Source: Neptunomonas japonica DSM 18939
Lineage (GTDB): Bacteria > Pseudomonadota > Gammaproteobacteria > Pseudomonadales > Balneatricaceae
Assembly: GCF_000422765.1 (NCBI RefSeq)
Contig: NZ_AUGR01000006.1
Span: forward strand, 124,001 to 188,000
Direction: 5' to 3'
DNA length: 64,000 nt
The first letter of the stretch is position 1; each line of letters begins with the position of its first letter. The translations under genes were made by a program, and so were the position numbers. Of the stretch, positions 37,232 through 53,830 are shown piece after piece. Below the pieces are notes generated by a model, which ran no database searches, was not told the DNA's origin, and saw only the letters and a program-made list of their open reading frames with translations.

Positions 37232-37304
37232 CGCTAGTTCCTCATTGTGTTTATTTTTAGTGAGTGTTTTAAAGTGCTACTTTTTATCTATTCAATTGCC
37301 TTAC

Positions 37305-38240: not shown

Positions 38241-38272
38241 TATAATTTACCTTAGTATTATTATTCTTTAAC

Positions 38273-39448
38273 TCAGTTATGGCTTAGCGTTTTCAGCATC
38301 AATTCTTTGGATATAACACCGCAAAAGGTGCCATTGCGTTCTATGACAGGGACTGGGTATTCAGAGCTAGCAACTTGCTTTACAACATCGCTAATCATGT
38401 CGTCACTGTAAACTGAATGATGCTGGTCGAATTGTTGCTCTATTAATGAGCTGGCGCTTGCTTGTGCATCAATAGAGACAAGCGGAACCACACCTTGCAG
38501 CTTATCGCTGTTATCCAGCAGGTAGCCAAATTGGTTGTTTGTCGGGTCAAAAGGTTGAACTGAACCGTTAATGCGAATTTTGCAGGCGCTTTTCTCGCAA
38601 GCAATATCACCAGCTTTAAGGATCTTGCTGACATCAACGCCTTTAAAGAAAGTTTCGACATACTCATCGGCAGGGTTGAGCATAATCTCTTTTGGTGTGC
38701 CAATCTGAACAACACGTCCGCCCTCCATAATGGCAATACGGTCGCCAATACGAATCGCTTCATCTAAATCGTGTGAGATAAAGACAATAGTGCGAGCCTG
38801 CTCCTGCTGTAGGCGAATCAGCTCTCCCTGCATCTCATGGCGGATTAAAGGATCGAGAGCTGAGAAGGCTTCATCCATTAGCAAGATAGTTGGGTCGTTG
38901 GTGAGCGCTCTAGCTAGCCCGACGCGTTGCTGCATTCCGCCGGATAGCTGGTGAGGATAACTGTCGCCATGCTCTCCCAATCCCACTTGTTGTAGCGCCT
39001 CTTGTGCTCTTAAGTTACGTTCTTTCTTTTCGACGCCGGATACTTCTAAGCCGAATGCTGCGTTTTCTATAACTGACATATGTGGCATGAGAGCAAAGGA
39101 CTGAAACACCATGCTCATCTCTTTACGGCGTACATCCAGCAGTTCAGCATCCCCAAGTACGGTAATGTCTTTGCCATTGAGTTCGATGCTGCCAGCAGTT
39201 GGCTCTATAAGACGGTTCAGCAGGCGAACCATCGTGGATTTTCCAGAGCCGGATAGCCCCATGATAACGAAAATTTCACCTTTCTTAACAGTAAAACTGG
39301 CATCAAAAACACCGACGGTCTGACCGGTTCTTTCAAAGATTTCATCTTTATTTGCGCCGTTTCGCAACATCTTCATCGCAGTCTCTGGCTGTTCGCCAAA
39401 TACTTTGTAGACGTTTTTAATCGACAGAATATCTGTGCTGTCTGTCAT
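38273..39448 (-). CDS. proV: Betaine ABC transporter ATP-binding subunit (ProV-like)
   Basis: 391 residues. Walker A GLSGSGKST at 64-72, signature LSGGMQQRV, Walker B ILLMDEAFSALDP and H-loop FISHDLDEA are all intact. The N-terminal KNVYKVFGEQPETAMKML is typical of ProV, and residues from about 275 are a CBS-domain pair, which in ProV/OpuA senses ionic strength or other cues. First gene of proVWX. The strand and setting beside a betaine demethylase suggest catabolic uptake rather than only osmoprotection. Confidence 0.94.
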   Translation of the reverse strand: MTDSTDILSIKNVYKVFGEQPETAMKMLRNGANKDEIFERTGQTVGVFDASFTVKKGEIFVIMGLSGSGKSTMVRLLNRLIEPTAGSIELNGKDITVLGDAELLDVRRKEMSMVFQSFALMPHMSVIENAAFGLEVSGVEKKERNLRAQEALQQVGLGEHGDSYPHQLSGGMQQRVGLARALTNDPTILLMDEAFSALDPLIRHEMQGELIRLQQEQARTIVFISHDLDEAIRIGDRIAIMEGGRVVQIGTPKEIMLNPADEYVETFFKGVDVSKILKAGDIACEKSACKIRINGSVQPFDPTNNQFGYLLDNSDKLQGVVPLVSIDAQASASSLIEQQFDQHHSVYSDDMISDVVKQVASSEYPVPVIERNGTFCGVISKELMLKTLSHN

Positions 39449-39680
39449 GCTACCCTCTGCATTTTTATGATTATTATTGAAGTCTATCGTGGTGACAGTC
39501 GTGCCATATCACAACAATATAAGTTTTCTCATGACTGTTGGTATGCCTATTAAGTTAAGTTCTTTGCTCGAAAGCGTCCAACGACATATTTAGCGTAAAA
39601 ACCATAACTTGTGGTTATTATTAATATGGCTGCGCAACCTACATCTCTCTTTAATAACCTCGGATGCTCATGAAATTGGT

Positions 39681-40565
39681 TTAGGGCGAATGATTAGCGC
39701 AGTTCCTAGAAAGCACAAAAGCAGCGATCAGGACCATCACTCCCCCTAAATAGGCTGATAAATTGAGCTGTTCCCCAATAAGAGATACTGCAATGAGAAC
39801 CGCCACTATCGGTTCTAGAGTAGAAAGCGTTGATGCACTAGCAGCGCCAATGAGTGGCGAGCCGCTAATAAAAGTAGCGATGGGAAGAATGGTGGCAAAC
39901 AATGCCAGCCCCAATGTAGCACTCCAGCCGCTTATCGACTGTGGCAGGTGAATGTGCTCGAGTAGACTGGCTATACTTAATGTTAGGACGCATCCGAACA
40001 ATATTGAGCATGCTGAAGCTAACGGGTTTTCAGGCTTTGCGTTGTGAGAACCATAAATAATAGCGGCGCCATAGCTGATGGCGGCAAAAAGAGCCCAGAG
40101 GATACCATTCAAGTCGCCTCTAAACTCAATGCCTGCAGCCAGCATCACACCTGACATTGCTAATGTCATGCTTATCAGTCGTCCTGCTGTGGCGCTCTCT
40201 TTGAGAAATAATATTGAGTAGAGAGTGACAAAGGCAGGGAAAGAAAACATCAGAATCACTGCTAAGCTAACAGACGTTGAATGGCTAGCGTTGTAATACC
40301 CCAATGCGGCACAGGCATAACCAACACCAATTAACATGCTTTGCAGGAATGGTTTTTTTCTTGGCAAGCGAATTTTCTTAATTTTCAACCAACCCAGTAT
40401 TAAAAGTGCCGCGATTAAAAAACGCGATATGAGCAACCCTACGGGGTTGGCACCATCGTTGTAGGCGAAGTGAGAGAAGAGTGGTTGCAGGCCGTAACTA
40501 ATGGCGGCAATCATCACTAAAATAAAACCCTTGCGATAGTCACGCAGATAGCATTGTTTCTGCAT
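39681..40565 (-). CDS. EamA-family transporter
   Basis: 294 residues from the ATG at 40565 (AGGA eight bases upstream); the frame opens further up at TTG. About ten transmembrane helices form two EamA repeats (MIAAISYGLQPLFSHFAY and GILWALFAAISYGAAIIYGS). Inner membrane carrier of unknown substrate; in catabolic clusters such proteins can export or import amino-acid-like molecules. Its start lies just beyond the terminator of the Rieske gene, so it has its own transcription signals or limited read-through. Confidence 0.82.
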   Translation of the reverse strand: MQKQCYLRDYRKGFILVMIAAISYGLQPLFSHFAYNDGANPVGLLISRFLIAALLILGWLKIKKIRLPRKKPFLQSMLIGVGYACAALGYYNASHSTSVSLAVILMFSFPAFVTLYSILFLKESATAGRLISMTLAMSGVMLAAGIEFRGDLNGILWALFAAISYGAAIIYGSHNAKPENPLASACSILFGCVLTLSIASLLEHIHLPQSISGWSATLGLALFATILPIATFISGSPLIGAASASTLSTLEPIVAVLIAVSLIGEQLNLSAYLGGVMVLIAAFVLSRNCANHSP

Positions 40566-40594
40566 TGAATGGTCCTGATAATAGGAGGAAGTGC

Positions 40595-40631
40595 ACAAAA
40601 AAGCCTCTGCATGCAGGGCAGGCAGAGGCTT
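40595..40631 (-). terminator. Rho-independent terminator of the Rieske oxygenase gene
   Basis: AAGCCTCTGC at 40601-40610 pairs with GCAGAGGCTT at 40622-40631; on the minus strand a run of six T follows. It is 15 bases after the stop codon of the oxygenase gene. Confidence 0.88.
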
Positions 40632-40645
40632 AAGAGAGGAAAGCT

Positions 40646-41857
40646 TTAGTCGTTAAGCTTTTGTTTCATGGTATCGCAGTACCAGTCTACAAACTGACAT
40701 ACACCGTTCTCAGCGATATCAGAAAATGGCCCTGGAATATATGAGGGCGAGCTGACCCCGCGGAATGTTTCTTCAACCAGTCTCTTGTCTTGGTCGTTAG
40801 TTGCTAGCCAAACTTTAGTGAGATTGTCTAGATCATAGTCGACACCTTCAATCGCATCTTTGGGCACTAGCCATTTAGTTGTTACGAGTGTTTGTCCCGA
40901 GTTGAGAGGCAGTACGCGAAAGCTCAGGGCAAAGTCACCAAGGAAGTGGTTCCAAGTGGATGGGTAGTTGAAATAAAGAAGGGCGCCAATGTCTTTAACA
41001 TCGGTATTATCGAGTCGGCCGTTAACAGCGGGCTGCCCATCCATTGTATAGCTGACCGCTTTAGCAGACAGCGGGATCCGTGTCATACGGTACTGGCCAT
41101 TTGTATCCATTACTAAACGGCTCGGTAATCCTGCTGCTTCGCATTTATCCCAATGTGCTACCAGTTCTGGATCATCATCGCCTCCAACGCCGGCAACCGA
41201 GAGATTTTCGACAAATGAATTGAGCAGTTCAGGATGATTGGCGTCGCAGTGGTAGCACTCACGGTTGTTTTCAAAAACCAGTTTCCAGTTTCCGTCTTCT
41301 ACTAAATTTGCTTCATGAGCTACTTTGCTGTTTTCAAGGTTATGCGGAGCGATAAACGGGCTTACATCTTTGCGGAATTGCTCAAAATCTGGCGCCTGCT
41401 CAGCGACACAAATGTATATGTAGCTATTAACGACTTCGCAATGTACGGGCATCAATCCATGGGCATCGTTGTTGAACTTCTCACCCATGTTACCAGCGAA
41501 CAATAGTTTGCCGTCTAGGCCAAAAGTCCATTTATGGTACGGGCAAACCAGTTTGGCTGTTTTCCCTTTAGCTTCTGAGCAAACGCGAGAGCCGCGGTGA
41601 CGGCAAGCGTTATGAAATGCTCTGACATTACCGGCGTCATCGCAAACGATAACTACGGGATAGTCACCCACTTGAATCGTCATGTATTGGCCGGCTTTTT
41701 CTATCTCGATAGTATGGCCGGCAAAAATCCACTCTTTGTGCCAGATCTGTTCCAGGTCTTGTTGGTACACATCTTCGTCGCGATAAATTTCCCGTGTCAG
41801 GGCGTGGCGCGGTTTACGCTGATTGATCAGCTCCAGAGTTTTAATTTTGCTGGTCAT
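40646..41857 (-). CDS. Rieske oxygenase, betaine demethylase alpha subunit (GbcA/Stc2/HpbB-like)
   Basis: 403 residues. The Rieske 2Fe-2S ligands are C85-x-H87 (CRHRGS) and C105-x2-H108 (CPYHKW). The mononuclear iron site is in FENNRECYHCDANHPEL, with H203 and H208 and a Glu at 200 as the bridging acid; this block is distinctive of the glycine betaine, stachydrine and carnitine oxygenase group. The product is the N-demethylated amine plus formaldehyde, with electrons from the reductase at 50851. In the hydroxyproline-betaine pathway this is the first demethylation. The substrate could also be glycine betaine or proline betaine. It is divergent from a LysR gene with a palindrome between. Confidence 0.9.
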   Translation of the reverse strand: MTSKIKTLELINQRKPRHALTREIYRDEDVYQQDLEQIWHKEWIFAGHTIEIEKAGQYMTIQVGDYPVVIVCDDAGNVRAFHNACRHRGSRVCSEAKGKTAKLVCPYHKWTFGLDGKLLFAGNMGEKFNNDAHGLMPVHCEVVNSYIYICVAEQAPDFEQFRKDVSPFIAPHNLENSKVAHEANLVEDGNWKLVFENNRECYHCDANHPELLNSFVENLSVAGVGGDDDPELVAHWDKCEAAGLPSRLVMDTNGQYRMTRIPLSAKAVSYTMDGQPAVNGRLDNTDVKDIGALLYFNYPSTWNHFLGDFALSFRVLPLNSGQTLVTTKWLVPKDAIEGVDYDLDNLTKVWLATNDQDKRLVEETFRGVSSPSYIPGPFSDIAENGVCQFVDWYCDTMKQKLND

Positions 41858-42029
41858 TGTGGTGCTCCCAAAACGCTACGCTGCTGTAGTCGCTGTTATT
41901 GTTATGCTTATACTGGTCTCGGCAGGTATATTGGCACTATAGTGTTTTCTCACAGTGCAGTGTGTAACTAAAATACCTGCTGACGTTGTTAGTCATTGTT
42001 GTGTCGTTGTCAGTGGCGCCAACACAGCA

Positions 42030-42048
42030 TGTAAGGGTATAACTTACA
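42030..42048. promoter_or_regulatory. Candidate LysR operator between Rieske and LysR genes
   Basis: TGTAAG at 42030-42035 and CTTACA at 42043-42048 form a perfect inverted repeat with a 7-base spacer, in the 285-base gap between divergent genes. It lies 95 bases from the LysR start and about 175 bases upstream of the oxygenase start. Confidence 0.5.
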
Positions 42049-42142
42049 AAATGTAGGCCTACCCAGATTTGAAATTTAGTGTATGGCTGGGGTTGAAACC
42101 GGTAAAGCGACTTTTTATTTAGAGAATTGAATACCTGAAGTT

Positions 42143-43147
42143 ATGGTTAAACATGTAGAGCCTGATCAGATCTTAGTAAAAATGCCTTCACTCCGAGCGG
42201 TGAAGTCTTTTGTTGCAGCGGCAAAGTATCAAAATTTCACTCGTGCAGCAGAAGCTCTTTGTGTTACGCAAGCGGCTATTAGTCGCCAAATTAGAGAGCT
42301 TGAAGCGTCTTTAGGTGTTTCATTGTTTAAACGAGCTGGGCGCGCCGTTGAACTGACAGAGGCGGGTACCATCTTTTATGATGCCGCCTATTTGTCTTTC
42401 GTTAACATAGCGCAGGCTGCACAGCGAATTCAGAACAGTGATAAGCGCAAGCAAGAGTTAACTATCTGCTGTTCACCCGCATTCTCAGCTTTTTGGCTTT
42501 CGGCACGCTTACCCGGTTTTTTTGCTGCCAATCCGGACATTGATGTTAGTGTTGTGACGACGAATAACTTTCTTCAGATGGAGCCAGGAGTACACCCTGA
42601 TATTTTCATTAATAAGGTGAGTGATCCCAGAGAAGGGTATCATTCAATTCCGCTATTTTATGATCTTATCTATCCGGTTTGCTCGCCGCTTTATTTAAAG
42701 CAAAACCCAGAGATTAATGATCTAGAAGTGTTGCAAAATCAAACCCTGCTTAACCTCAGTCCTTATGGGCGTTCACAAATTGCGGAGCATGTAGATTGGG
42801 GCGTTTGGTTTAGCTCCCAAGGGATCGATATTGATATCGGCCTAGGTGGGGATCGTCATGTGTTCAATGCTAATGATTACAATATGCTGATTCAGATGGT
42901 GCTTAACCATCAAGGTGTGTGCCTAGGGTGGCATCAACTAGTATCTCCTATGATCGAACAAGGCTGGCTAGTACGTATTGGTGAAGCTGAGGCCGTTTAT
43001 CGGGAGAAGTCGCACTACCTTACTTATTCTGAAAGTCGCCAAGATAACGAGGCATTTCGTACGTTTAAGGAATGGTTCCTTGGCTGTATTGCTGATGAGC
43101 AAACCTCTGTCGTTCCGCTAGAAAAAATAGCTAAAGCAAGCAATTAG
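42143..43147 (+). CDS. LysR-family regulator, GcvA-like
   Basis: 334 residues. The helix-turn-helix SLRAVKSFVAAAKYQNFTRAA with VTQAAISRQIRELEASLG is typical of GcvA-type LysR proteins, many of which control amino-acid or amine catabolism. The ligand domain follows from about residue 105 (KQELTICCSPAFSAFWLSARL). It is divergent from the Rieske demethylase gene and probably regulates it. It resembles the LysR protein at 52057 (same subgroup, similar motif CVTQAA(I/V)SRQ(I/V)R), suggesting both serve the same island. Confidence 0.88.
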   Translation: MVKHVEPDQILVKMPSLRAVKSFVAAAKYQNFTRAAEALCVTQAAISRQIRELEASLGVSLFKRAGRAVELTEAGTIFYDAAYLSFVNIAQAAQRIQNSDKRKQELTICCSPAFSAFWLSARLPGFFAANPDIDVSVVTTNNFLQMEPGVHPDIFINKVSDPREGYHSIPLFYDLIYPVCSPLYLKQNPEINDLEVLQNQTLLNLSPYGRSQIAEHVDWGVWFSSQGIDIDIGLGGDRHVFNANDYNMLIQMVLNHQGVCLGWHQLVSPMIEQGWLVRIGEAEAVYREKSHYLTYSESRQDNEAFRTFKEWFLGCIADEQTSVVPLEKIAKASN

Positions 43148-43227
43148 ACCCTTTGAAATAAATTTCGGCTGTTCTTCTTTGCTTGCTTTCTCGTGGCTAG
43201 TTGTTAGGCCAATACTACCGTTCATAA

Positions 43228-44334
43228 TTAGCCGAAACTCATCAGTGCAGTCTCGGTTGTGTTGATGTGTGGTTCTATCCCAAGACCAAAACCGCTCGGC
43301 AAACTCAGTTGCCCCTGTTTCACCGAAAGGCCATTGTCCGGATCATAATGGCCGTCGATATAGGGCGCAGCAACCCAGACCCCATCACATAGCTGAGGCT
43401 GTATTGTTGCACCAAGCTGCAAGCAGGCGGAAGCAACCAGATCACCCCCCCAGCTGTCATCTGATGTTATGGGTAAACCGGCAACGTGGCATACATCACG
43501 GATAGTTCTCATTTTACTGATACCACCCACTCTGCTTTGCTTCATACCAAAGCCATCGGCGGCGTTGTCTGAAATAGCTCGTAACAGTGTGTTTAGATCT
43601 TCAATCACTTCATCCAGATAGAGCGGGCGGGCTATGTGCTGGCGAACCGCTAGGCATTGTTCGTATGTCTGACAGGGTTGCTCCATGACAAAGGCCAGCT
43701 CTTTACATGCAAGAGACAAGTTAATAGCATCACGCGGTAGTAGCCCACGGTTAGCATCGACGGCCAATGTGCTGCCTGTTGCTAAAACTTCTGAAACCTT
43801 ATGTACTGCGGCTATATCTTCTTGAAGCTCTCTGCCACCAACCTTGAGTTGAAGTCTGCGAAAGCCTTGTGCTTGTTTTTCTTTGGCAATCTCTGCTGCT
43901 TCATCCGGTGAGGTCAGTCCGATTGCATAATAGGAAGGTACCTTTTCCCGAATCGCTCCGCCTAATAAATCACAAATACGCACACCATAGGTTTTCCCGG
44001 CAATATCCCAGAGAGCCATATCAATGGCTGACTTTGCGTAGAGGCTACCGCACAGTGCTTGATTCATCACATCATACACACGGTCAATCAATAGAGGATT
44101 CATACCGATTAGGTGAGGGCAGATCTCTTGCAGCGCAGCGCGGCCTCCCAACATATGTTGTGGTTGGTAGGCAGGCCCAAGTGGGCAGAACTCGCCATAG
44201 CCAATCAAACCGCTATCAGTGGTTATTCTAACGATAGTTGAATCAAGCGTTGTTAACTCTTGAAGGGCCATTTTATAGGGCTTACCCTTAATAGGTAATG
44301 GCCGATGAAAGACAGAGATCTCAACGATTTTCAT
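43228..44334 (-). CDS. hpbD: Hydroxyproline-betaine/proline-betaine 2-epimerase (enolase superfamily)
   Basis: 368 residues from the ATG at 44334 (AAGGAG upstream, start inside the end of the previous gene). Mandelate-racemase/muconate-lactonising-enzyme fold. The metal ligands are D193 in AVDANRG, E218 in FVMEQP and D241 in LYLDEV; general bases are K164 in LQLKVGG and K265 in GFGMKQSRVGG. The residues that hold the betaine in the characterised Pelagibaca HpbD, which I recall as Tyr56, Asp292 and Trp320, occur at the same numbers here (Y56 in GPAYQP, D292 in TSDDSW, W320 in CDGVW). It would invert C2 of trans-4-hydroxy-L-proline betaine or proline betaine. Translationally coupled to the gene at 44321. 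Confidence 0.85.
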   Translation of the reverse strand: MKIVEISVFHRPLPIKGKPYKMALQELTTLDSTIVRITTDSGLIGYGEFCPLGPAYQPQHMLGGRAALQEICPHLIGMNPLLIDRVYDVMNQALCGSLYAKSAIDMALWDIAGKTYGVRICDLLGGAIREKVPSYYAIGLTSPDEAAEIAKEKQAQGFRRLQLKVGGRELQEDIAAVHKVSEVLATGSTLAVDANRGLLPRDAINLSLACKELAFVMEQPCQTYEQCLAVRQHIARPLYLDEVIEDLNTLLRAISDNAADGFGMKQSRVGGISKMRTIRDVCHVAGLPITSDDSWGGDLVASACLQLGATIQPQLCDGVWVAAPYIDGHYDPDNGLSVKQGQLSLPSGFGLGIEPHINTTETALMSFG

Positions 44335-45439
44335 GCATATTCTCCTTAGGCGGTAGTAAGACCAGCTTGCCAATAAATTTCTTAGCCATAAAGTCTTGCT
44401 GAGCCTCTGTGATTTTTTGCAGTGGGTATTCATGTGCAACGAGAGGTTTTAATTCATCACGTTCAATATATTGGATCAAATTTTCGAAAACTGACCGGGG
44501 TTGGTAAGTACAGCCAAAAAAGCTTAAATCTTTAAGGTATAACGTTCTTACATCTAACTCGACTATTGGGCCTGCTATTGCGCCTGCTACCGTATAGCGT
44601 CCACCTCTGCGTAACAGGTCGAGTAGTTCCGCCCACTGATCTCCAGCGACGAGGTCAATCACGACATCCACTGAGTGATGCCCCAGAACATCCGTCATGC
44701 TTTCTCCTCGAGGGATGACTATGTCGGCGCCTAGTGCTTTAAGCTGTTCTACCTTTTCTGCGCCACAGATAGCAATGACTTTAGCATGACGCCGTTTAAC
44801 CAGTTGTACTGCAGCTGATCCAACACCACCCGATGCACCCGTAATGAGTACCGTTTCATTAGCTTTAACGCCAACTCTATCGATCATGTTTTCGGCAGTA
44901 GAGTAAGCGCATGGGAATGATGCTAGTTCAGCGTCAGTCAATGAGCTTTGTACCGCAAATGCCTCGCTTGCAGGGGTTTTGGTATATTGTGCAAACCCAC
45001 CATCACACTCAGACCCATAGGTAATGCAGCTGAACTCACCTTGTGAGGCTGCTGATTGAAGGTTACGTAACAGTACTCTTTCACCGATTCGACCAGGGTT
45101 TACTTGCTCACCAACAGCAACAATCTCGCCACAGCAATCAGCTCCTTGAATTCTTGGAAACTCAAGTGGGATACCAGACCAACTAGCGTCATCATCATCG
45201 GCTGTTTCAAATCCTTGTGCGGCGCCTGCATTGGTTTGTCCCGTTACGCCTTTTGAGTACCAGCCAATACGGGTATTGATATCAGTATTATTTACCGCGC
45301 TGGCGCCTACTCTGATCAGTACTTCTCCTTTATCTGGAGTTGGTACCGCTAAGTCAGTGCGGTATAGCAGTTTTTCAAGACCGCCGTGCCCTGTTAGAAC
45401 AACGCCTGTCATTTGATCCGGAATTTTATGGGTTGTCAT
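44321..45439 (-). CDS. Zinc-type (MDR) alcohol dehydrogenase/quinone oxidoreductase
   Basis: 372 residues from the ATG at 45439. The medium-chain dehydrogenase layout is clear: GroES-like N-terminal part with IQGADCCGEIVAVG, then the Rossmann motif VLITGASGGVGSAAVQLVKR. The catalytic zinc cysteine and histidine pattern of classical ADH is incomplete, so it may be a zinc-free NADPH:quinone oxidoreductase-type enzyme. The substrate is unknown. It overlaps the hpbD start by 14 bases, so both are made from one message; its role in the betaine pathway is therefore likely but not defined. Confidence 0.85.
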   Translation of the reverse strand: MTTHKIPDQMTGVVLTGHGGLEKLLYRTDLAVPTPDKGEVLIRVGASAVNNTDINTRIGWYSKGVTGQTNAGAAQGFETADDDDASWSGIPLEFPRIQGADCCGEIVAVGEQVNPGRIGERVLLRNLQSAASQGEFSCITYGSECDGGFAQYTKTPASEAFAVQSSLTDAELASFPCAYSTAENMIDRVGVKANETVLITGASGGVGSAAVQLVKRRHAKVIAICGAEKVEQLKALGADIVIPRGESMTDVLGHHSVDVVIDLVAGDQWAELLDLLRRGGRYTVAGAIAGPIVELDVRTLYLKDLSFFGCTYQPRSVFENLIQYIERDELKPLVAHEYPLQKITEAQQDFMAKKFIGKLVLLPPKENMHENR

Positions 45440-45673
45440 ATTACTTACCACGTCTTTATTGAGCGACGATCGCTCGTATGAATGATGAGACCCTAACTTG
45501 TGTTCATTTAACAGCGCGTATCAGGTCGTTACATTGGATATGTTGCCTATTACCCTAAAAAAAATGCATACTTCAAGCAAACTAAAAATAGTTAATCAGC
45601 AGTTTAGATTTATTGAATAACTAACGATGAGTTTACTTTTATAGACTCGCTAATTATCTGAGAAGGGTAGGCA

Positions 45674-46552
45674 ATGGATCCGTTACTTGATCTTGAGTTA
45701 TTACGTACATTTGTCATGGTGGTTCGCACCGGAGAACTGAAGAAAGCAGCCAAAGCTATCTACCGTTCACATGCGGCGGTTAGCATGCAGATGAAACGTT
45801 TGGAAGAGCAGCTAGGTACTAGTTTGATGGAACGCAGCAACCAAGGCATCCGGTTAACAGAAGCGGGAAAAACCCTACTCAGTTATAGCGAGCAATTTTT
45901 AAAATTGAATAATGCGACCTTGTCAGCACTAGCCGAAAAGGACCTTTCAGGACAACTTAGTTTTGGCATCCCAACAGACTATGCTCAGGACTTTCTTAAC
46001 TTTTTTATGCCGGTACTCACGCAAGAACTGCCCAACCTTGAAGCTAAAATAATCTGCGATCGTAGCCGAAACTTGAGAAAGAAACTGGATGCGGGGGAGC
46101 TGGATATTGCCATTGTTGCAGGCGAGGATGAATACCCGGATGAGATGTTACTGTGGAGTGAACGCTTGATATGGTCTGGACCGGCCTGTGCAAGGCTGGA
46201 AGAGAAGGAGGAGGTGCCGGTCGCGATACATGAAGATAACTGTATTGTTCGTGATCTATGCTTGGAAGGGCTGAAAAAAGCTAATATTCCATACAAGCAA
46301 GTGTTTGGTAGCCCGGTTCTTGAGAACGTTGCAACAGCTGTTCATGCAGGCTTTGCTATATCTCTGTTACCGGAATCATTGCTGATTCTAGATAAAACCA
46401 GAATGTTACCCGCGAATATTTTGAACAGTAACCTAGTGCTGAAAATGAATATGATTTACTCATCATCGGTTGATGCACAGGTATTAAAACGAATCTCAGA
46501 ATGCTTGTTGATCGCCTCTGGTATCCAGAAAAAAACACATTTAACCGACTAA
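45674..46552 (+). CDS. LysR-family transcriptional regulator
   Basis: 292 residues. The helix-turn-helix LELLRTFVMVVRTGELKKAAKAIYRSHAAVSMQMKRLEEQLG is LysR, resembling the LrhA/HexA-like subgroup. The ligand domain starts near residue 92 (GQLSFGIPTDYAQDF). AAGGGTAGGCA gives a ribosome binding site. It is divergent from the dehydrogenase-hpbD pair; a short AT-rich inverted repeat (AACTA-AAAA-TAGTT at 45580-45593) lies between and could be its operator. Targets: that pair, and possibly the operon at 46835. Confidence 0.85.
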   Translation: MDPLLDLELLRTFVMVVRTGELKKAAKAIYRSHAAVSMQMKRLEEQLGTSLMERSNQGIRLTEAGKTLLSYSEQFLKLNNATLSALAEKDLSGQLSFGIPTDYAQDFLNFFMPVLTQELPNLEAKIICDRSRNLRKKLDAGELDIAIVAGEDEYPDEMLLWSERLIWSGPACARLEEKEEVPVAIHEDNCIVRDLCLEGLKKANIPYKQVFGSPVLENVATAVHAGFAISLLPESLLILDKTRMLPANILNSNLVLKMNMIYSSSVDAQVLKRISECLLIASGIQKKTHLTD

Positions 46553-46834
46553 GTCGTTATGTAATCGGTATAGCCGGTAAGCCTGTCCCCATTTATCTTA
46601 TTAAACCCTCGCTTTGTAATCCTGTATATGCGGAGGTTGCGCTCCCATTTTTTGTGGGTTATCTGGCTCTCATAACCTGAAGTTATGTTTTCTGTGAATA
46701 AAAGGTTGATTGTGGAGTCCTGCCCCCCCTCGTTACCATTTTATCAAGCTGTTTTATAAACCAGATGAGTCTCTCTAAGATTTTCTAGTCTCTTAAAACG
46801 ACCATCAATAACAATGATAACGAAGGTGAGTTAA

Positions 46835-47821
46835 ATGCACTTCGAAGGGATTTATACTCCAGTAATCACACCGTTTAAGGAAGATTACTCTATCGACTAT
46901 GATGCTTACACAGCTCATGTTCAGTACTTACAGGCGTCTGGCGTTCACGGCTTGATGATCGGCGGTACGACCGGTGAATACTATGTCGAGACTCATGAAG
47001 AACGAGTTGCGCTGTTAAAGATCGCTCGTGAGATTTGTGGCGATAGTCTGCAGATTATCTTTGGTACTGGTTCGGTCAATCCAGATGCGTCGTTAAAGTT
47101 GGCTGAAGATGCCGCTAAGTATCAGGCGGATGTGATTTTGGTGGCAACTCCGCCTTATTCTTTACCAACACAACGTGAGCTGGCGCTGCATGCGCTAGCC
47201 GTGGATCGCGCCGCTGATCTGCCCATAATGTTGTACAACTACCCGGATCGTATGGGCGTCAATATGGAAGAGGAGTTTCTCGACCGTGTGGGGCGTTCTA
47301 ACAATTTCTGCGGTATCAAAGAAAGCTCCGGTGATATCAATCGCTTGCACATGCTGGCACGTGACTATCCGCATATACAGGTTGCCTGCGGTATGGATGA
47401 TCAGGCCTTAGAGTTTTTCGCCTGGGGAGCTAAAAGCTGGGTGTGTGCGGGGTCTAACTTCCTGCCGACAGAGCATCTGGCACTGTATAACGCCTGTGTT
47501 GTTGAAAATGATTTCAACAAGGGACGTCGCATTATGTCAGCCATGATGCCACTCATGCGGGTATTAGAGCAGGGCGGTAAATTTATTCAGAGCGTTAAGC
47601 ATGGCGTAACACTGGATGGCCGTGTTTCCGGTCAAGTGCGTAAGCCATTGCGCGGCCTGAATAAGGATGAAAAACAAGCAATGGCTCAAGTAGTCAAAAC
47701 GCTGAAAACAACCATTGCCGGTATCGCCGCTGAAACGCCAGAAGACACATTTGTGAAGACTATCAAAGCCAACATCAGCAAAACAAAAGCTGAAGTTGCC
47801 AGCACACAGGCGGGGGAATAA
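46835..47821 (+). CDS. DapA-family lyase, probable Pyr4H2C deaminase
   Basis: 328 residues. TIM-barrel class I aldolase of the DHDPS/NAL superfamily: GGTTGEYY at 43-50 binds the carboxylate, Y134 (MLYNYP) is the proton relay and K162 (GIKESSGD) forms the Schiff base. Superfamily members include DapA, N-acetylneuraminate lyase, KDA dehydratase and the Pyr4H2C (1-pyrroline-4-hydroxy-2-carboxylate) deaminase of hydroxyproline catabolism. Position before an aldehyde dehydrogenase and beside hpbD favours the last, giving 2-oxoglutarate semialdehyde and ammonia. Sequence alone cannot exclude other family reactions. GAAGGTGAG upstream; next gene starts three bases after the stop codon. Confidence 0.75.
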   Translation: MHFEGIYTPVITPFKEDYSIDYDAYTAHVQYLQASGVHGLMIGGTTGEYYVETHEERVALLKIAREICGDSLQIIFGTGSVNPDASLKLAEDAAKYQADVILVATPPYSLPTQRELALHALAVDRAADLPIMLYNYPDRMGVNMEEEFLDRVGRSNNFCGIKESSGDINRLHMLARDYPHIQVACGMDDQALEFFAWGAKSWVCAGSNFLPTEHLALYNACVVENDFNKGRRIMSAMMPLMRVLEQGGKFIQSVKHGVTLDGRVSGQVRKPLRGLNKDEKQAMAQVVKTLKTTIAGIAAETPEDTFVKTIKANISKTKAEVASTQAGE

Positions 47822-47824
47822 CGC

Positions 47825-49342
47825 ATGTCAGACCTGTTAACTTTGGAAGAATACAAAGCGATTGCTGCAGAGCTGAATCCGCCTGCCATGAGCTTTATCA
47901 ATGGTGGTTTTCGCCCAGCGCTATCGGGCAATACATTTGAAACTATCAACCCGGCGACCGGTGAGCTACTCGCTAATGTGGCTGCCTGTAATGCTGATGA
48001 TGTTGATTTTGCTGTTAGCAAAGCGCGTGAAGCCTTTGAAGATGGCCGCTGGAGTAAGCTTCATCCGGTGGCACGTAAAGAAGTACTGATTAAACTCTGC
48101 AAGCTGGTAAAAGAGAACAGCCGTGAACTGGCGGTATTGGAAAGCTTGGACTCAGGTAAACCGATTGCTGATTGCGAAGGTATCGATATCCCTGAGTTTA
48201 TCCATACGCTGACATGGCATGCTGAAGCGGCGGATAAAATTTATGACCAAACGGCACCGGTCGGTTCTGACGCCATCGCGATGATCGTACGTGAACCCGT
48301 CGGTGTAGTGGGGGCTGTATTGCCTTGGAACTTTCCTCTGCTCATGTTGGCGTGGAAGATTGCACCGGCGCTGGCGGCGGGTTGCACAATGGTGGTTAAA
48401 CCTGCCGAGCAAACCTCACTCACGGCTTTGCGCATTGCTGAACTGGCGGCTGAAGCGGGCTTGCCTAAAGGTGTGTTAAACGTGATCACCGGTGGTGGCG
48501 CTGAAGTGGGTGAGCCTTTAGGTCTGCATATGGATGTGGACATGGTGACGTTTACCGGCTCCACCGTTACTGGACGTCGTTTCTTGCGTTATGCCGCGGA
48601 CTCGAATCTCAAGAAAGTCGTATTGGAGTTGGGTGGCAAGAACCCATGCATCGTACTGGATGATGCCGAAGATCTGGACAAAGTGGCTGAGCAAGTGTGT
48701 GCAGCGGCTTTCTGGAACATGGGTGAAAACTGCTCTGCTGGTTCTCGTCTGATCGTTCAGGCCGGTGTAAAAGAGCAGCTATTGGAACGCATTAAAGCAC
48801 ATGCGCGTGATTGGAATACCGGTGATCCGCTGGACCCGACTAAGCAGTTAGGTGCAATGATCGATGCCGGACACTTTGCTAAAGTCAGCGGTTATCTGCA
48901 TGAAGGAAAATCCGCAGGCCATGACGTGGTGTTGGGTGGCGAAACCATGGATGGCATCTTTATCCAACCCACTGTGTTTGATGGTGTCAGCAATGACGAC
49001 AAACTCGCACAAGAAGAGATCTTTGGTCCAGTATTGTCGGTAATTACGGTTGCTAGTTATGACGAAGCGATTCAGGTTGCCAACGATACTGACTATGGTC
49101 TGGCGGCATCAGTATTCACGGCGAATGGTAAGAAAGCCCTGCGTGCTGCTCAAGCCATTAAGGCCGGTACTGTGACCGTAAACTGCTTCGGTGAAGGCGA
49201 CATTACCACACCGTTTGGCGGCTATAAGCAGTCGGGCTTTGGTGGTCGTGATAACTCCATCCATGCCCATGATCAGTACACCGAGCTGAAAACAATCTGG
49301 GTCGACCTGAGTGATGATGCTGTTGACGGTTGCGTTGACTGA
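47825..49342 (+). CDS. NAD(P)-dependent aldehyde dehydrogenase
   Basis: 505 residues. Catalytic C303 in MGENCSAGSR, E268 in VLELGGKNP, N169 in PWNFPLL and K192 in VVKPAEQT are all present. The overall sequence is most like the PuuC/gamma-aminobutyraldehyde and betaine-aldehyde group. In the hydroxyproline scheme this enzyme would be 2-oxoglutarate semialdehyde dehydrogenase, giving 2-oxoglutarate; being directly coupled to the DapA-like gene supports that, while the PuuC-like sequence leaves other amino-aldehydes open. A 10-bp hairpin separates it from the next gene. Confidence 0.88.
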   Translation: MSDLLTLEEYKAIAAELNPPAMSFINGGFRPALSGNTFETINPATGELLANVAACNADDVDFAVSKAREAFEDGRWSKLHPVARKEVLIKLCKLVKENSRELAVLESLDSGKPIADCEGIDIPEFIHTLTWHAEAADKIYDQTAPVGSDAIAMIVREPVGVVGAVLPWNFPLLMLAWKIAPALAAGCTMVVKPAEQTSLTALRIAELAAEAGLPKGVLNVITGGGAEVGEPLGLHMDVDMVTFTGSTVTGRRFLRYAADSNLKKVVLELGGKNPCIVLDDAEDLDKVAEQVCAAAFWNMGENCSAGSRLIVQAGVKEQLLERIKAHARDWNTGDPLDPTKQLGAMIDAGHFAKVSGYLHEGKSAGHDVVLGGETMDGIFIQPTVFDGVSNDDKLAQEEIFGPVLSVITVASYDEAIQVANDTDYGLAASVFTANGKKALRAAQAIKAGTVTVNCFGEGDITTPFGGYKQSGFGGRDNSIHAHDQYTELKTIWVDLSDDAVDGCVD

Positions 49343-49361
49343 GTAAACATCAGTATTGAAT

Positions 49362-49393
49362 CCGCATAGGTGCTAATGCAGGTACCTATGCGG
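49362..49393 (+). promoter_or_regulatory. Intercistronic hairpin between ALDH and FAD oxidoreductase genes
   Basis: CCGCATAGGT at 49362-49371 and ACCTATGCGG at 49384-49393 pair perfectly around a 12-base loop, with no T-run. It could protect the 3' end of the upstream part of the message or act as an attenuator inside the operon. Confidence 0.5.
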
Positions 49394-49412
49394 TTCAGAC
49401 AGGAACCGATTT

Positions 49413-50759
49413 ATGAGTAAAAGTATTCACGTAAAGCGCTTGCCTAAGGACCCTGGGCCTGCAGCTTGGAATAGCATATTGCCAGCAGCGACTGAGTATC
49501 CTCAGCTTAACGATGATATTTCTGCAGACTGGGTCGTTGTCGGTGGTGGCTTTACTGGCCTCGCTGCGGCTCGTCGATTAAGCCAGCTGGTGGGTGATGA
49601 GTCGATTGTTTTGCTTGAAGCAAACAATCTGGCAGATGGGCCAGCAGGGCGTAACTCAGGTTTTATGATTGATCTTCCCCATGACCTGAATTCTGAGACC
49701 TATGCCGGTGCTCATGAGCAAGACTTGCAGCAGATTCGTTTGAATCGGGCGGCCATTGATTTTGCCCGTGATATGGCACAAGAGTATGGCATGAGTCGTG
49801 AGGTGTTTGACCCCTGTGGCAAAGTAACAGCTGCAGGGTCTAGCCGCGGTGAGGAGCATATAGAAAGCTACCGTAAGCACCTTGAAACGTTGGGTGAAAC
49901 TTACAAGTTGATGAACACCAGCGAGATGAAAGACTGGACGGGTACTGAGTTCTATCGCCAAGGATTGTTTACGCCTGGTGCGGTAATGATTCAACCAGCA
50001 GCTTTTGTTCGTGAGGCCGCACAAGGTTTGAGTTCACAGGTAGTTTTCTTTGAGAAAAGTCCAGTCATTGGAATCGAAACCGGTGAAGTACACCGCCTGA
50101 ATACGCCTAACGGTTCAGTCAGAGCGAAGAATGTGATTCTGGCCGTTAATGGGCATATCCAGTCGTTCGGGTTTTTTCCCCGCCAGTTGCTGCACGTGTT
50201 TACCTATGCATCGATGACTCGTGCCTTGAGCAGCACTGAAATAAAACAGCTTGGAGGTGTGAGTGATTGGGGGGTATTACCGGCAGATCCGATGGGAACA
50301 ACCGTACGGCGAAGTTCTGATTTTATGGGTAGCGGGCACCGTGTGGTGGTTCGTAATCATGCAACGCTCAATCAGAATATGGAAGTAACCGAGCGCAATT
50401 TACGTAATGCGGCAAAATTACAGGACCGTTCTTTTGCTCGCCGTTTTCCTATGCTTAAGGGTGTCGATATTGAGCATCGCTGGGGTGGTAGGCTTTGTTT
50501 GTCTTGGAACTCGATGCCAGCGTTTGGTGAAGTAGAACAACGCATTTGGTCAGCGGCTTGCCAAAATGGCTTAGGTACTGTTAAAGGTACGCTGTCTGGC
50601 ATGATGGCAGCAGAGCAGGCCGTATTAGGTCAGTCTGATCTGCTGAGTGAGTTTTTAGAGCATCAGGCACCTTCAAAATTACCGCCTGAGCCGTTCCTTT
50701 CATTAGGCGCCAACATGTCGATGAAATGGAAAGAGTGGCAGGCCGGAATCGAACTGTGA
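49413..50759 (+). CDS. FAD-dependent amine/amino-acid oxidoreductase (DAO family)
   Basis: 448 residues. The dinucleotide-binding motif VVVGGGFTGLAAARRL lies at 41-56, and the DAO family's C-terminal HRWGGRLCLSWNSMPAFG resembles the OrdL/PuuB group. Such flavoenzymes oxidise N-methyl or secondary amines and D-amino acids. In the proposed pathway it could remove the second N-methyl group or oxidise cis-4-hydroxy-D-proline to the pyrroline; only one such gene is visible here, so one of these steps may be done elsewhere. It is in the same operon as the reductase downstream. Confidence 0.83.
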   Translation: MSKSIHVKRLPKDPGPAAWNSILPAATEYPQLNDDISADWVVVGGGFTGLAAARRLSQLVGDESIVLLEANNLADGPAGRNSGFMIDLPHDLNSETYAGAHEQDLQQIRLNRAAIDFARDMAQEYGMSREVFDPCGKVTAAGSSRGEEHIESYRKHLETLGETYKLMNTSEMKDWTGTEFYRQGLFTPGAVMIQPAAFVREAAQGLSSQVVFFEKSPVIGIETGEVHRLNTPNGSVRAKNVILAVNGHIQSFGFFPRQLLHVFTYASMTRALSSTEIKQLGGVSDWGVLPADPMGTTVRRSSDFMGSGHRVVVRNHATLNQNMEVTERNLRNAAKLQDRSFARRFPMLKGVDIEHRWGGRLCLSWNSMPAFGEVEQRIWSAACQNGLGTVKGTLSGMMAAEQAVLGQSDLLSEFLEHQAPSKLPPEPFLSLGANMSMKWKEWQAGIEL

Positions 50760-50850
50760 TTGTGCGTTTTTTCAACTATTCTAGCTATTACGAATATTGC
50801 AGCTAATAAAAATAATTTGGGCAGATTGTTAAGGCTGCCAGGAGAGGCCG

Positions 50851-51960
50851 ATGAGCGAATTTAATACCTCCGATTTCATGAACCCCATGATGACGCAAAC
50901 CTGGTCAAATGGTCGCCATGAAGTGCGTTGTGTCAAAGTCATTGCCGAAACGCATGATGTCACTACTTTCACCTTTGGAATGAACCAACCGGTGTTGTTC
51001 TTTTTCAAACCGGGGCAATTTGTCACTTTGGAGCTAGAGATCGATGGTGAGCGAGTGATGCGCTCATATACCATTTCTAGCTCACCTTCGATTCCATATA
51101 GTTTTTCGATTACGGTAAAGCGCGTGGCTGGCGGTAAAGTATCAAACTGGCTGCATGATAACCTTAAGTCGGGTGATCAGGTCGCGGTTCATGGCCCCGT
51201 CGGGCAGTTTAACTGTATGGACTTTCCATCAGAAAAAATACTTCTTTTATCGGGCGGTGTGGGCATCACGCCGGTGATGTCGATGGCACGCTGGTGGTTT
51301 GATACCGACTCTGAAGTAGACATTGTTTTTGCTCATAGCGCTCGAAGCCCTAGGGATATAATTTATTCACGTGAGCTGGAATATATGTCGAGTCGAATCG
51401 ATAATTTTCAGATGCATCTGATTTGTGAATCGACAGGGATTGGGCAAGCGTGGAATGGTTATCGTGGTTATCTTAACTATCACATGTTGAGTTTGATCGC
51501 CCCTGACTTTATGACACGAGAAGTGTTTTGTTGTGGTCCCGAGCCCTATATGAAAGCGGTTAAGTTGATGCTCCAGGGTGTTGGGTTTGATATGGATCGC
51601 TACCATGAAGAATCCTTTGGCGAGACACCGGTTAAGGATGTTGAGCTAGCAGAAAAACATGCTGATGCAGCAGAGGTTGAAAATTTACAACCCAAAGAGA
51701 TGGTACAGGTCAGCTTTACCGACGCAGGCCAATCGGTTGCGGTAGCGCTGGGTACTAATTTAAATGAGGCGGCGAATGAGGCCGGAGTAAATATCTCTAA
51801 GGCATGTGGTGTGGGTATCTGTGGAGCTTGTCGAGTAAAAGTCATATCCGGTGATTTTGAAATGGCTCAAAATGGCGGTATTAGTGAGGAAGAGATCGAA
51901 CAAGGCTATGTCTTATCTTGCTGTACGAATGTGATAGGCGATATAGAGATAGATTACTAA
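50851..51960 (+). CDS. Betaine demethylase reductase (FAD/NAD plus 2Fe-2S ferredoxin)
   Basis: 369 residues. An FNR-type flavin domain has RSYTISS at 71-77; the nicotinamide domain contains LLLSGGVGITPVMSM; a plant-type ferredoxin domain ends the protein with iron ligands C319, C324, C327 and C357. This architecture is that of GbcB and carnitine monooxygenase reductases, which feed electrons from NAD(P)H to a Rieske oxygenase. The partner is almost certainly the oxygenase at 40646, although 9 kb away and on the opposite strand. GGAGAGG upstream. It ends the plus-strand catabolic operon. Confidence 0.9.
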   Translation: MSEFNTSDFMNPMMTQTWSNGRHEVRCVKVIAETHDVTTFTFGMNQPVLFFFKPGQFVTLELEIDGERVMRSYTISSSPSIPYSFSITVKRVAGGKVSNWLHDNLKSGDQVAVHGPVGQFNCMDFPSEKILLLSGGVGITPVMSMARWWFDTDSEVDIVFAHSARSPRDIIYSRELEYMSSRIDNFQMHLICESTGIGQAWNGYRGYLNYHMLSLIAPDFMTREVFCCGPEPYMKAVKLMLQGVGFDMDRYHEESFGETPVKDVELAEKHADAAEVENLQPKEMVQVSFTDAGQSVAVALGTNLNEAANEAGVNISKACGVGICGACRVKVISGDFEMAQNGGISEEEIEQGYVLSCCTNVIGDIEIDY

Positions 51961-52001
51961 CCTGTTTAGTTTTTGCTAGAAGGGGCAACGACTACTTTTA
52001 T

Positions 52002-52024
52002 ACAGGGCTGAGGCCCTGTTTTTT
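52002..52024 (+). terminator. Rho-independent terminator of the catabolic operon
   Basis: ACAGGGC-TGAG-GCCCTGT followed by TTTTT, 42 bases after the reductase stop codon. It separates the four-gene operon from the LysR gene at 52057. Confidence 0.85.
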
Positions 52025-52056
52025 GTTAATGAAGTACGCTGTTTTTCGAGTAACTT

Positions 52057-52986
52057 ATGCAACAGAAACTGAGAGGCCTACCGTCGTTGACTGCGTTGCG
52101 TACTTTTGAAGTGGCAGCACGCTATTGCAGCTTTAAACAAGCAGCTGAGGAGTTATGTGTTACTCAGGCTGCGGTAAGCCGACAAGTTAGGCAGCTGGAA
52201 ACGCAATTAGATGTTGAGCTGTTTGTGCGTAGTCATCGAAGAGTCGATCTAACAGAGCAGGGCACTAAGCTGTTTCAGACAGTACATCGCTCGCTGGCAG
52301 ATATAGCGGCTATCAGTTACGAAATGCAGTCAGGCCCTCGCCTAAATAATATTAACTTGTATGCCACCAGTTCATTTTCACGGCTGTGGCTGGTGCCACG
52401 TCTTAATCAGTTACGTAGGGCGCACTCACAGGTCCATCTACATCTGATCAGCGTGGAAGAAAACCCCGCGATGTCAGACAAGTTTGATGCGGGTATTACG
52501 CTTGGATTGGAGGATAACAACGCTTACCAGTCTGACTTTCTGTTTTCGGAGGATGTATTTCCTGTCTGTACGCAGGTATTTCTTGAGGCTAACCCAACAG
52601 CCAACTCTATAGAAGGGTTGATGCAACTACCGTTACTTGAGCTGGATGCTAAGTTTTGGAATGCAAAATGGTGGTCTGCAGTAGACTGGTCGTTTTGGTT
52701 CGATCAGCAAGGCTTGGACTGTGCTGATGTAAGCACTGATATCTCTTTCAGCCATTTTCCTATGCTATTGGATGCGGTATTGCAGGATGTAGGAGTGGGG
52801 CTTAGTTGGCAGCATCTGGTGCAGGATATGTTAGATGATGGGCGGCTTATTCAGCCGGTAATAGAACGTTATTCAGCACCGGAAAGAAAGCATTATTTTG
52901 TTTGTCGTAAAGACCTAGCAGAAAAACCAGAGATGAAGTTATTACGCGCCTGGCTGCTCGAACAAACGGCTATTTTTAGAATGTAA
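52057..52986 (+). CDS. LysR-family regulator, GcvA-like
   Basis: 309 residues. SLTALRTFEVAARYCSFKQAAEELCVTQAAVSRQVRQLETQLDVELF is a GcvA-type helix-turn-helix. The ligand domain begins near residue 90 (NINLYATSSFSRLWLVPRL). It follows the terminator of the catabolic operon, with start 33 bases after it, and converges with the short-chain dehydrogenase pair. Similarity in subgroup to the protein at 42143 suggests related amine signals; no operator is evident. Confidence 0.87.
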   Translation: MQQKLRGLPSLTALRTFEVAARYCSFKQAAEELCVTQAAVSRQVRQLETQLDVELFVRSHRRVDLTEQGTKLFQTVHRSLADIAAISYEMQSGPRLNNINLYATSSFSRLWLVPRLNQLRRAHSQVHLHLISVEENPAMSDKFDAGITLGLEDNNAYQSDFLFSEDVFPVCTQVFLEANPTANSIEGLMQLPLLELDAKFWNAKWWSAVDWSFWFDQQGLDCADVSTDISFSHFPMLLDAVLQDVGVGLSWQHLVQDMLDDGRLIQPVIERYSAPERKHYFVCRKDLAEKPEMKLLRAWLLEQTAIFRM

Positions 52987-53065
52987 TAGCTTATTTTAAT
53001 AATATATATGGCTCGTTCGCTAGAAAAACCGCTAATGCTTATTACCGGTTTGTTGTTTGTACAGG

Positions 53066-53821
53066 TCAAAAAGGTAGAGGTAATTTGGCTGTTCTGCCGC
53101 CATCGATAACAAAATTTTGGCCGGTGATAAACCCTGCTTCCTCAGACACTAAAAAAGCGACCATGCTGCCTATATCAGAAGGCTCACCGGTTCGACCGAC
53201 AGGATGCATCGCGCGTAGGTCTTGCTTGGCTTGCTGCGGATCATCTTGGGAATTAATGTAATCATTACTCAGGTCTGAGTTAATCCAGCCAGGGGCAATG
53301 GAGTTACAGCGGATGCCATCTTTACCTAGGTCAATGGCCAAGGCGCGAGTGAAACCGTGAACGCCAGCTTTTGAACCACAATAGGCAACATGGTAAGGGT
53401 TAGCGCCGATGCCTTCGATAGAACCAATATTGATGATGCTCGCATTACCTTTGGCACGCATCTGACTCAGCACCGCTTTAGCAAGAAACACCGGTGCCCG
53501 CATATTGACGATCATCATACGATCCCAATTTTCTTCGTCCATATCCTCTATATGTTGCTCGAACATAAAACCGGCATTGTTAACAAGAATGTCGGTGCCC
53601 CCAAGCTCTGCAGCAACTGATGCGATCTGATAGGGCGCTTCAATCTCGCTCAGGTCTGATTGAATATAAAAAACCTTGGCGTTACTTTGTAGCGCTTCAT
53701 CAAGAGGTTGGCGTTGGGCTATTAATACCCGTGCTCCAGCGGCCAACAGTCTTTCGGTTATACCACGGCCGATACCACGGCCTCCGCCTGTGACAATGGC
53801 TAGCTTATCTTGTAGATTCAT
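53066..53821 (-). CDS. Short-chain dehydrogenase/reductase
   Basis: 251 residues from the ATG at 53821 (GAGGG upstream; a TTG two codons before it is less likely). Cofactor motif TGGGRGIG at about 11-18, NNAG in VNNAGFMF, catalytic Ser in NIGSIEG and Y-x3-K in YCGSKAG. The C terminus ends PGWINSDL...FVIDGGR, a complete classical SDR. Its start lies nine bases after the stop codon of the neighbouring SDR, so they are coupled. The substrate is unknown; NAD-dependent oxidation of a hydroxyl group is likely. Confidence 0.88.
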   Translation of the reverse strand: MNLQDKLAIVTGGGRGIGRGITERLLAAGARVLIAQRQPLDEALQSNAKVFYIQSDLSEIEAPYQIASVAAELGGTDILVNNAGFMFEQHIEDMDEENWDRMMIVNMRAPVFLAKAVLSQMRAKGNASIINIGSIEGIGANPYHVAYCGSKAGVHGFTRALAIDLGKDGIRCNSIAPGWINSDLSNDYINSQDDPQQAKQDLRAMHPVGRTGEPSDIGSMVAFLVSEEAGFITGQNFVIDGGRTAKLPLPF

Positions 53822-53830
53822 TATCAACCC

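Follow-up and report, generated by a model that had tools for sequence, protein, structure and literature searches.

A probable hydroxyproline-betaine catabolic island in Neptunomonas japonica

A 64,000-nucleotide stretch of the Neptunomonas japonica DSM 18939 genome (contig NZ_AUGR01000006.1, positions 124,001 to 188,000; hereafter the window) carries a gene island that probably imports hydroxyproline betaine, removes its methyl groups and catabolises the rest. We give this reading, with hydroxylated proline betaine as the best-supported substrate class, a probability of about two in three. The island combines a ProXWV betaine importer, a Stc2/HpbB-like Rieske oxygenase with its reductase, an MR/MLE enolase-superfamily protein (MLE) of the HpbD clade and a set of three enzymes, here called the trio: a DapA-family protein, an aldehyde dehydrogenase (ALDH) and a DAO flavoenzyme. 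A first-pass annotation had assigned positions 40646-51960 to a hydroxyproline-betaine (or proline-betaine) pathway. The six enzyme genes that it named are intact, all open, of full length and above the Pfam curated cut-offs, and the ProVWX transporter that it placed beside them is present at 36206-39448 on the minus strand. Its pathway reading is partly supported: for uptake, for the Rieske pair, for the epimerase and for a trio whose relatives adjoin hydroxyproline-epimerase-type proteins. DapA and ALDH are not orthologous to HypD and HypH of Sinorhizobium meliloti. Judged from its sequence, the island represents a variation on a known pathway rather than a system of a new kind, and what distinguishes it is a pair of short-chain dehydrogenases/reductases (SDRs), a swap of demethylase type and a missing second demethylase.

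The MLE gene (43228-44334, minus strand) encodes a proposed hydroxyproline-betaine 2-epimerase; its start is taken as the ATG at 44334, the first start called by the open-reading-frame tool being a TTG further upstream. In the PDB, the protein scores highest against 4E8G/4IZG/4J1O, at 408 bits, and then against 2PMQ/4H2H, at 343 bits, which we take to be HpbD-type structures, and a Paracoccus pantotrophus protein annotated as hpbD falls beside 4E8G in our tree. In this tree of 113 rows, built by a quick method, a clade of 94 rows with an SH-aLRT support of 100 unites MLE with 4E8G and 2PMQ. Trp320, which presumably holds the ammonium group, is found in all 94 clade members and in none of the ten outgroup rows with a residue at that position, and D292 is found in 91 of the 94. 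The presumed catalytic lysines K164 and K265 and the residues D193, E218 and D241, which we take to be among the metal ligands, occur in 94/94 clade members and also in 19/19 outgroup rows, and are thus not specific.

The Rieske oxygenase (40646-41857, minus strand) is a proposed (hydroxy)proline-betaine N-demethylase. It is 50.3% identical to 3VCA, which we take to be the stachydrine demethylase Stc2, 49-52% identical to HpbB-type proteins and 42.9% identical to the GbcA of N. japonica itself. It joins Stc2/HpbB at a support of 80/91, and GbcA of the N. japonica type sits in a separate fork (98/96), which gives moderate support for a position nearer to Stc2/HpbB than to GbcA. The protein also stays below the NCBIfam GbcA equivalog cut-off (497.5 bits versus 670). 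Its partner, a GbcB-type ferredoxin reductase (50851-51960, plus strand), exceeds the GbcB equivalog cut-off (669.6 bits versus 500) and is 71% identical to the organism's own GbcB over 194 amino acids (L001) and 63% identical over a longer stretch (L129). This likeness would suit a second locus for glycine betaine demethylation, a reading that we consider highly improbable given the placement of the Rieske oxygenase apart from GbcA and an epimerase, DapA and SDRs that glycine betaine would not need. Moreover, GbcA-, GbcB- and FdhA-like genes are clustered on another contig (C18), and on contig C8 a DgcA-like protein and a ferredoxin-type partner are found with genes for electron-transfer flavoprotein and for a betaine transporter (families assigned by eye). 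With these loci at other places in the genome, glycine betaine is probably not degraded through the island, and we rejected the island as a duplicate of that route.

The identity to 3VCA and the type of ProX would fit the catabolism of plain proline betaine (stachydrine) too, with the Rieske oxygenase demethylating once, MLE acting as a racemase, proline as the product and the trio serving some other purpose. We regard this as quite unlikely: the DapA, ALDH and DAO genes are syntenic with the Rieske gene in three genera, the DapA-ALDH pair shares a locus with MLE in 26 of 80 sampled loci, and a DapA step is unneeded for proline. The odds that we attach to this and the other alternatives overlap in part with those of hydroxyproline-betaine catabolism.

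The lower part of the proposed route would fall to the DapA-family protein (46835-47821; Pfam DHDPS), the ALDH (47825-49342; Pfam Aldedh), a proposed 2-oxoglutarate-semialdehyde dehydrogenase, and the DAO flavoenzyme (49413-50759; Pfam DAO), a proposed oxidase of cis-4-hydroxy-D-proline or its N-methyl derivative, all on the plus strand. A hydroxyproline-type lower pathway is supported mainly because relatives of DapA and ALDH lie near two-cysteine proline-racemase-family proteins, taken together with a neighbourhood rule given in a 2014 eLife paper (PMC4113996), by which genes for D-amino acid oxidase (DAAO), dihydrodipicolinate synthase (DHDPS) and ALDH in the vicinity indicate that a family member functions as a 4-hydroxyproline epimerase. 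Such arrangements are found at three loci of an alphaproteobacterial sample (L237, L239 and L240), with DapA relatives of 46-51% and ALDH relatives of 58-63% identity; the proline-racemase-family protein there has the motifs MCGH...DRSPCGTG, is 59-61% identical to the S. meliloti one and has several SDRs nearby. At two further loci (L011 and L083) the DapA and ALDH relatives stand beside a family member with DRCPCGTG that lacks the first cysteine, and the characterised 3-hydroxyproline dehydratases described in the same paper lack the second. Viewed as a whole, L239 (L239:8498-17567) and L240 combine DapA and ALDH with the two-cysteine protein, four SDR matches and, assigned by eye, an EamA-like transporter and a flavoprotein, and look like a hydroxyproline cluster with several SDRs.

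Comparison with two other genera shows how far the unit extends. A genome of another genus in the same family (G085) has PrpD, ProX, ProW, ProV, EamA, Rieske oxygenase, LysR1, DapA, ALDH, DAO, reductase, LysR3, SDR a and SDR b in the same order, at 56-90% identity. A genome of a further genus (G040) has the same set minus PrpD, which was not found in the 35 kb viewed there; SDR b and SDR a follow directly after ProX in this genome, on the strand of the Rieske-EamA-ProVWX block. The conserved unit therefore spans about 34779-54598, and the interval of the first-pass annotation was too narrow. On the minus strand at its left end lie the genes for an MmgE/PrpD-family protein (34779-36113; both Pfam domains above cut-off; 77% identical to the copy at the matching position in G085), ProX (36206-37231; NCBIfam ProX, 463.5 bits versus a cut-off of 215; 78-81% identity to the G040 and G085 copies), the ProW permease (37305-38240; 87-90%), the ProV ATPase (38273-39448; 74-81%) and an EamA drug/metabolite transporter (DMT) family protein (39681-40598; Pfam EamA; 57-60%, at the matching position in both genomes). 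LysR1 (42143-43147, plus strand) keeps its position in both at 73% identity, and LysR3 (52057-52986, plus strand) is 48-56% identical to its counterparts. The LysR, ProW, ProV and GlxA assignments in this work were made by eye from translations.

The epimerase travels with its own neighbours. The MLE gene overlaps by 14 bases with that of a zinc/quinone-type alcohol dehydrogenase (ADH; 44321-45451, minus strand; Pfam ADH_N/ADH_zinc_N), and LysR2 (45674-46552, plus strand), divergent from both, stays with them in G040 and G085 at 62-66% identity. The LysR2-ADH-MLE block is a separable module, since it lies outside the island in these two related genera, and in Neptunomonas it is placed inside the core island, which comprises about 34779-54598 minus 43228-46552. 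Within the genus, a 93% identical MLE gene occurs in Neptunomonas sp. (L040), and the island Rieske oxygenase is present in one genome at 96% identity (G007) and was not found in six others (G001-G006), which gave matches of 33-45% or none.

The first-pass annotation had proposed a gene-neighbourhood search around the HpbD homologue as a check. We compared 80 MLE loci from a genome collection, the best 80 of 570 confirmed stretches and a set rich in Rhodobacterales and Mesorhizobium, at thresholds of our own choosing. DapA and ALDH occur together in 26 of them, one being the Neptunomonas locus L040. All 26 have a DAO and 25 a demethylase candidate (MttB superfamily in 21, Rieske in four); the SDR pair is found in 18, ProV in 14, ADH in seven and HpbA in two. 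Of the 48 loci that are 19 kb or longer, 20 had DapA and ALDH, and with them DAO (20), a demethylase candidate (19: 16 MttB-superfamily, three Rieske), the SDR pair (16), ProV (12) and HpbA (two). EamA and PrpD were above threshold in 0/80. Three Paracoccus loci from two species (L061, L068 and L073) carry an HpbB-HpbC-type Rieske pair, MLE, SDR b, SDR a, DAO, ALDH, DapA and ProVWX. DapA of the trio type is uncommon, being found in 11 of 369 genomes of a gammaproteobacterial class sample (N. japonica included) and in 19 of 385 genomes of the class of Roseovarius nubinhibens (that genome included); against the former rate stands its presence in five of five relatives searched that possess an HpbD-clade MLE. 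ALDH accompanies it in most loci viewed, and the Rieske type of the window in none of the 31 DapA loci viewed, some of them short.

Several observations weigh against the assignment to hydroxyproline betaine. In an unannotated record of the S. meliloti pSymB hydroxyproline region, the proteins that we ourselves read as HypD and HypH share 24% identity with DapA and 26% with ALDH, respectively, and on these identities we rejected DapA and ALDH as plain HypD and HypH; DAO has no match in that 30-kb region at E 1e-5. Roseovarius nubinhibens (G145) carries the trio plus proteins of both the HypD and the HypH type. Cereibacter johrii (G144), the one genome of its genus that was searched, carries the trio plus an HypH-type protein, the latter beside a 27% identical DapA-family protein. 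Given this coexistence, the trio might be something other than a simple replacement for HypD and HypH. MLE sits in a four-row subclade of its own (support 96), outside the subclades of 2PMQ and 4E8G, and the LysR2-ADH-MLE block (62-72% identity) is located elsewhere in the genome in both G040 and G085. No DapA-ALDH pair was seen in 54 of the 80 MLE loci within the stretches covered, many of which are short. No HpbA orthologue was found in the island and no match on the window's contig, and the hydroxyproline-betaine pathway is not known to need an SDR step.

Searches of the N. japonica genome itself found neither HypD-type (E 1e-20) nor HypH-type (E 1e-30) proteins, and Rhodobacter viridis (G148) likewise has the trio with neither type at these limits. 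In a table of PMC4113996, Rhodobacter sphaeroides 2.4.1 and R. nubinhibens ISM are recorded as growing on cis-4-hydroxyproline; we rejected this growth as support for the trio, R. nubinhibens having both HypD and HypH types and C. johrii the HypH type.

The distance of the trio from the S. meliloti hydroxyproline enzymes and its coexistence with HypD and HypH types in R. nubinhibens would also suit a non-proline substrate, namely a different quaternary ammonium compound whose alpha carbon is chiral, from which an MttB-superfamily protein or a Rieske oxygenase takes the first methyl group and on which DapA acts as an aldolase. Eleven of 31 DapA loci examined contain an MttB-superfamily gene that is 66-80% identical to the Cereibacter one. 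We nevertheless judge such a substrate improbable in view of the DapA-ALDH pairs near two-cysteine proline-racemase-family proteins at L237, L239 and L240 and of the HpbD clade membership and Trp320 of MLE. The separable nature of the epimerase block raises another alternative, in which MLE, ADH and LysR2 have a substrate of their own and lie between LysR1 and DapA by chance; this would be compatible with hydroxyproline-betaine catabolism by the remaining island. In G085 a gene for a DddP-like (30%) protein follows the block, and the stretches covered at L005, L006 and L049 hold ADH and MLE but not the trio. Set against this, trio-type DapA was found in the genomes of all five relatives with an HpbD-clade MLE that were searched (a search confined to relatives with MLE), MLE and the DapA-ALDH pair share a locus in 26/80, and the N. 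japonica genome yielded no proline-racemase-family epimerase. We therefore think a chance placement unlikely.

For hydroxyproline betaine as the substrate, we infer each reaction and the order of reactions from the gene content, families, clades, synteny and linkage observed. ProXWV would import the betaine, and MLE would invert C2 while the nitrogen keeps both methyl groups; we place epimerisation at the level of the betaine since a search of the genome revealed no proline-racemase-family enzyme. The Rieske oxygenase and its reductase would then remove one N-methyl group oxidatively as formaldehyde, and the second methyl group might be lost by way of DAO or through an enzyme encoded outside the island, with the DgcA-like protein as one candidate. 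DAO would convert the D-configured ring to a pyrroline, DapA would open and deaminate it to 2-oxoglutarate semialdehyde, and ALDH would oxidise the semialdehyde to 2-oxoglutarate. The SDR pair would probably oxidise and then re-reduce the ring hydroxyl, bringing other C4 epimers into the route.

The enzyme set had been described as covering two demethylations, but the island has no gene that accounts for the second one. The best HpbA-like matches in the N. japonica genome are 44% identical (C8, the apparent DgcA-type locus) and 32% identical (C23). A dedicated enzyme for this step probably exists in some relatives, because one of them (G008) has an HpbA-like protein (72%) adjoining MLE and another (48%) adjoining an MttB-superfamily gene near the trio. 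The latter locus (L270:9978-20000) consists of the trio followed by a LysR regulator, a PhyH-like dioxygenase (by eye), an MttB-superfamily protein, the DgcA/HpbA-like protein and SDR b.

SDR a (53066-53827) and SDR b (53831-54598), paired on the minus strand, are the most conspicuous omission from the first enzyme list, which was right in the genes it named and left out ADH, EamA and PrpD as well. The two genes lie in the islands of all three genera (SDR a at 75-78% and SDR b at 79-86% identity to those of G040 and G085) and follow MLE in many alphaproteobacterial clusters, where SDR a is about 42-54% identical; seven of 25 SDR pairs occur without the DapA-ALDH pair. The best PDB match of SDR b is 3UXY (272 bits), and among the best 25 of about 190 family models per protein none named a plausible substrate. 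An S. meliloti pSymA cluster (L015:8001-14894), in which DapA, ALDH and a FAD-binding oxidoreductase are found together with a proline-racemase-family gene and three SDRs, includes an SDR that shares 44% identity with SDR b. In mammals, the SDR enzyme BDH2 reduces 4-oxo-L-proline to cis-4-hydroxy-L-proline, and by analogy the pair may move the ring hydroxyl between faces. The legend of the pathway figure in PMC4113996 names no SDR. A bolder proposal, which we regard as possible yet doubtful, is that the SDRs invert the C4 hydroxyl via 4-oxoproline (betaine), so that the island consumes more than one hydroxyproline betaine diastereomer, and that DAO may act on the N-methyl ring, because the island lacks a second demethylase, with DapA releasing methylamine instead of ammonia. 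For methylamine use via gamma-glutamylmethylamide synthetase, a type III glutamine synthetase model served as proxy and gave five genome matches, none above its cut-off, and thus lent this idea no support.

ADH, EamA and PrpD have no step in the proposed pathway. ADH is present in 21 of the 80 MLE loci, adjoining the MLE gene in several. On a Paracoccus yeei plasmid (L005:7426-12102), ADH, a DddP-type protein, an HpbD-clade MLE and a DMT transporter are consecutive, and the DddP-type protein exceeds the cut-off for the dimethylsulfoniopropionate lyase DddP (849.8 bits versus 600).

All ten proteins scanned were above the Pfam cut-offs for the families named here; MLE, DapA, ALDH and DAO passed no NCBIfam cut-off among the families shown (for ALDH, the best 25 of 41). 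The genes that had gone unmentioned are ADH and two LysR regulators inside the earlier interval, EamA before it, and one LysR regulator and the two SDRs after it. Three transcription units had been counted, too few when judged by gene orientation, which gives seven blocks: 41857-33645 (minus), 42143-43147 (plus), 45451-43228 (minus), 45674-46552 (plus), 46835-51960 (plus), 52057-52986 (plus) and 54598-53066 (minus). A terminator-like hairpin lies 3' of the DapA-ALDH-DAO-reductase block (52002-52019, plus strand); its position alone speaks for it, with 16 such sites against 15.3 expected in shuffles. The promoter scan gave 14 sites against 24.0 expected and carries no information. G+C content is 46.7% over 33645-54598, compared with 41.4% on the left flank and 44.2% on the right flank within the window.

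At the left edge, a GlxA/AraC-type regulator (33645-34697, minus strand) is a possible island regulator; homologues (about 28-33% identity) adjoin PrpD in G085 and, in several alphaproteobacterial clusters, are found close to ProX or to the trio. It belongs to a minus-strand row at 31497-34697 in which two neighbouring GlxA/AraC-type regulators stand with an oxygenase-like gene, by eye of the isopenicillin-N-synthase family. Further left, two overlapping plus-strand genes (27338-30762) have matches to GajA at 636 bits and to GajB at 270 bits and probably form a Gabija anti-phage defence system. Adjoining the island on the right is a separate small locus (54819-57921, minus strand) with an agmatinase-family protein above its NCBIfam cut-off, a LysR regulator (LysR4) and a tripartite ATP-independent periplasmic (TRAP) substrate-binding protein (by eye); these genes beyond 54.8 kb have no match in the G085 or G040 islands.

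With the hpb system reported by Zhao 2013, the island shares an HpbD-clade epimerase, an HpbB/HpbC-like Rieske pair, a betaine ATP-binding cassette (ABC) importer and the DAO, DapA and ALDH enzyme classes. It lacks HpbA, adds the SDR pair, ADH, EamA and PrpD, and differs in gene order from the P. pantotrophus hpb cluster, in which no DapA-ALDH pair was seen. Compared with the S. meliloti Stc2 stachydrine demethylase system, the related Rieske oxygenase of the island is associated with an epimerase and with a lower pathway of the hydroxyproline type. Hydroxyproline catabolism on S. meliloti pSymB (HypD/HypH) uses the same superfamilies in the same proposed roles, although the identities are low, DAO has no match there, and N. 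japonica lacks a detectable proline-racemase-family protein. The Cereibacter (L008) and Leisingera (L007) clusters share MLE, SDR b, SDR a, DAO, ALDH and DapA with the island, and L008 also ProVWX; they have an MttB-superfamily protein in place of the Rieske pair, and a GntR regulator. The Cereibacter MttB-superfamily protein is below the trimethylamine methyltransferase cut-off (273.3 versus 525).

We found no description of such an island in the titles and abstract openings of open-licence literature on hydroxyproline betaine with bacteria or on Neptunomonas betaine catabolism. Hydroxyproline betaine is reported from marine plankton, namely radiolarian holobionts (PMC11965087). If our reading is correct, the island would provide marker genes, open to testing, for hydroxyproline betaine use in marine Gammaproteobacteria. 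It would also suggest that Rieske and MttB-superfamily demethylases can replace each other, and would point to an SDR pair that has no place in the pathway as usually drawn. Either C4 inversion or methylamine release, if true, would constitute a new branch of betaine catabolism, with MttB-superfamily and Rieske demethylases as interchangeable front ends.

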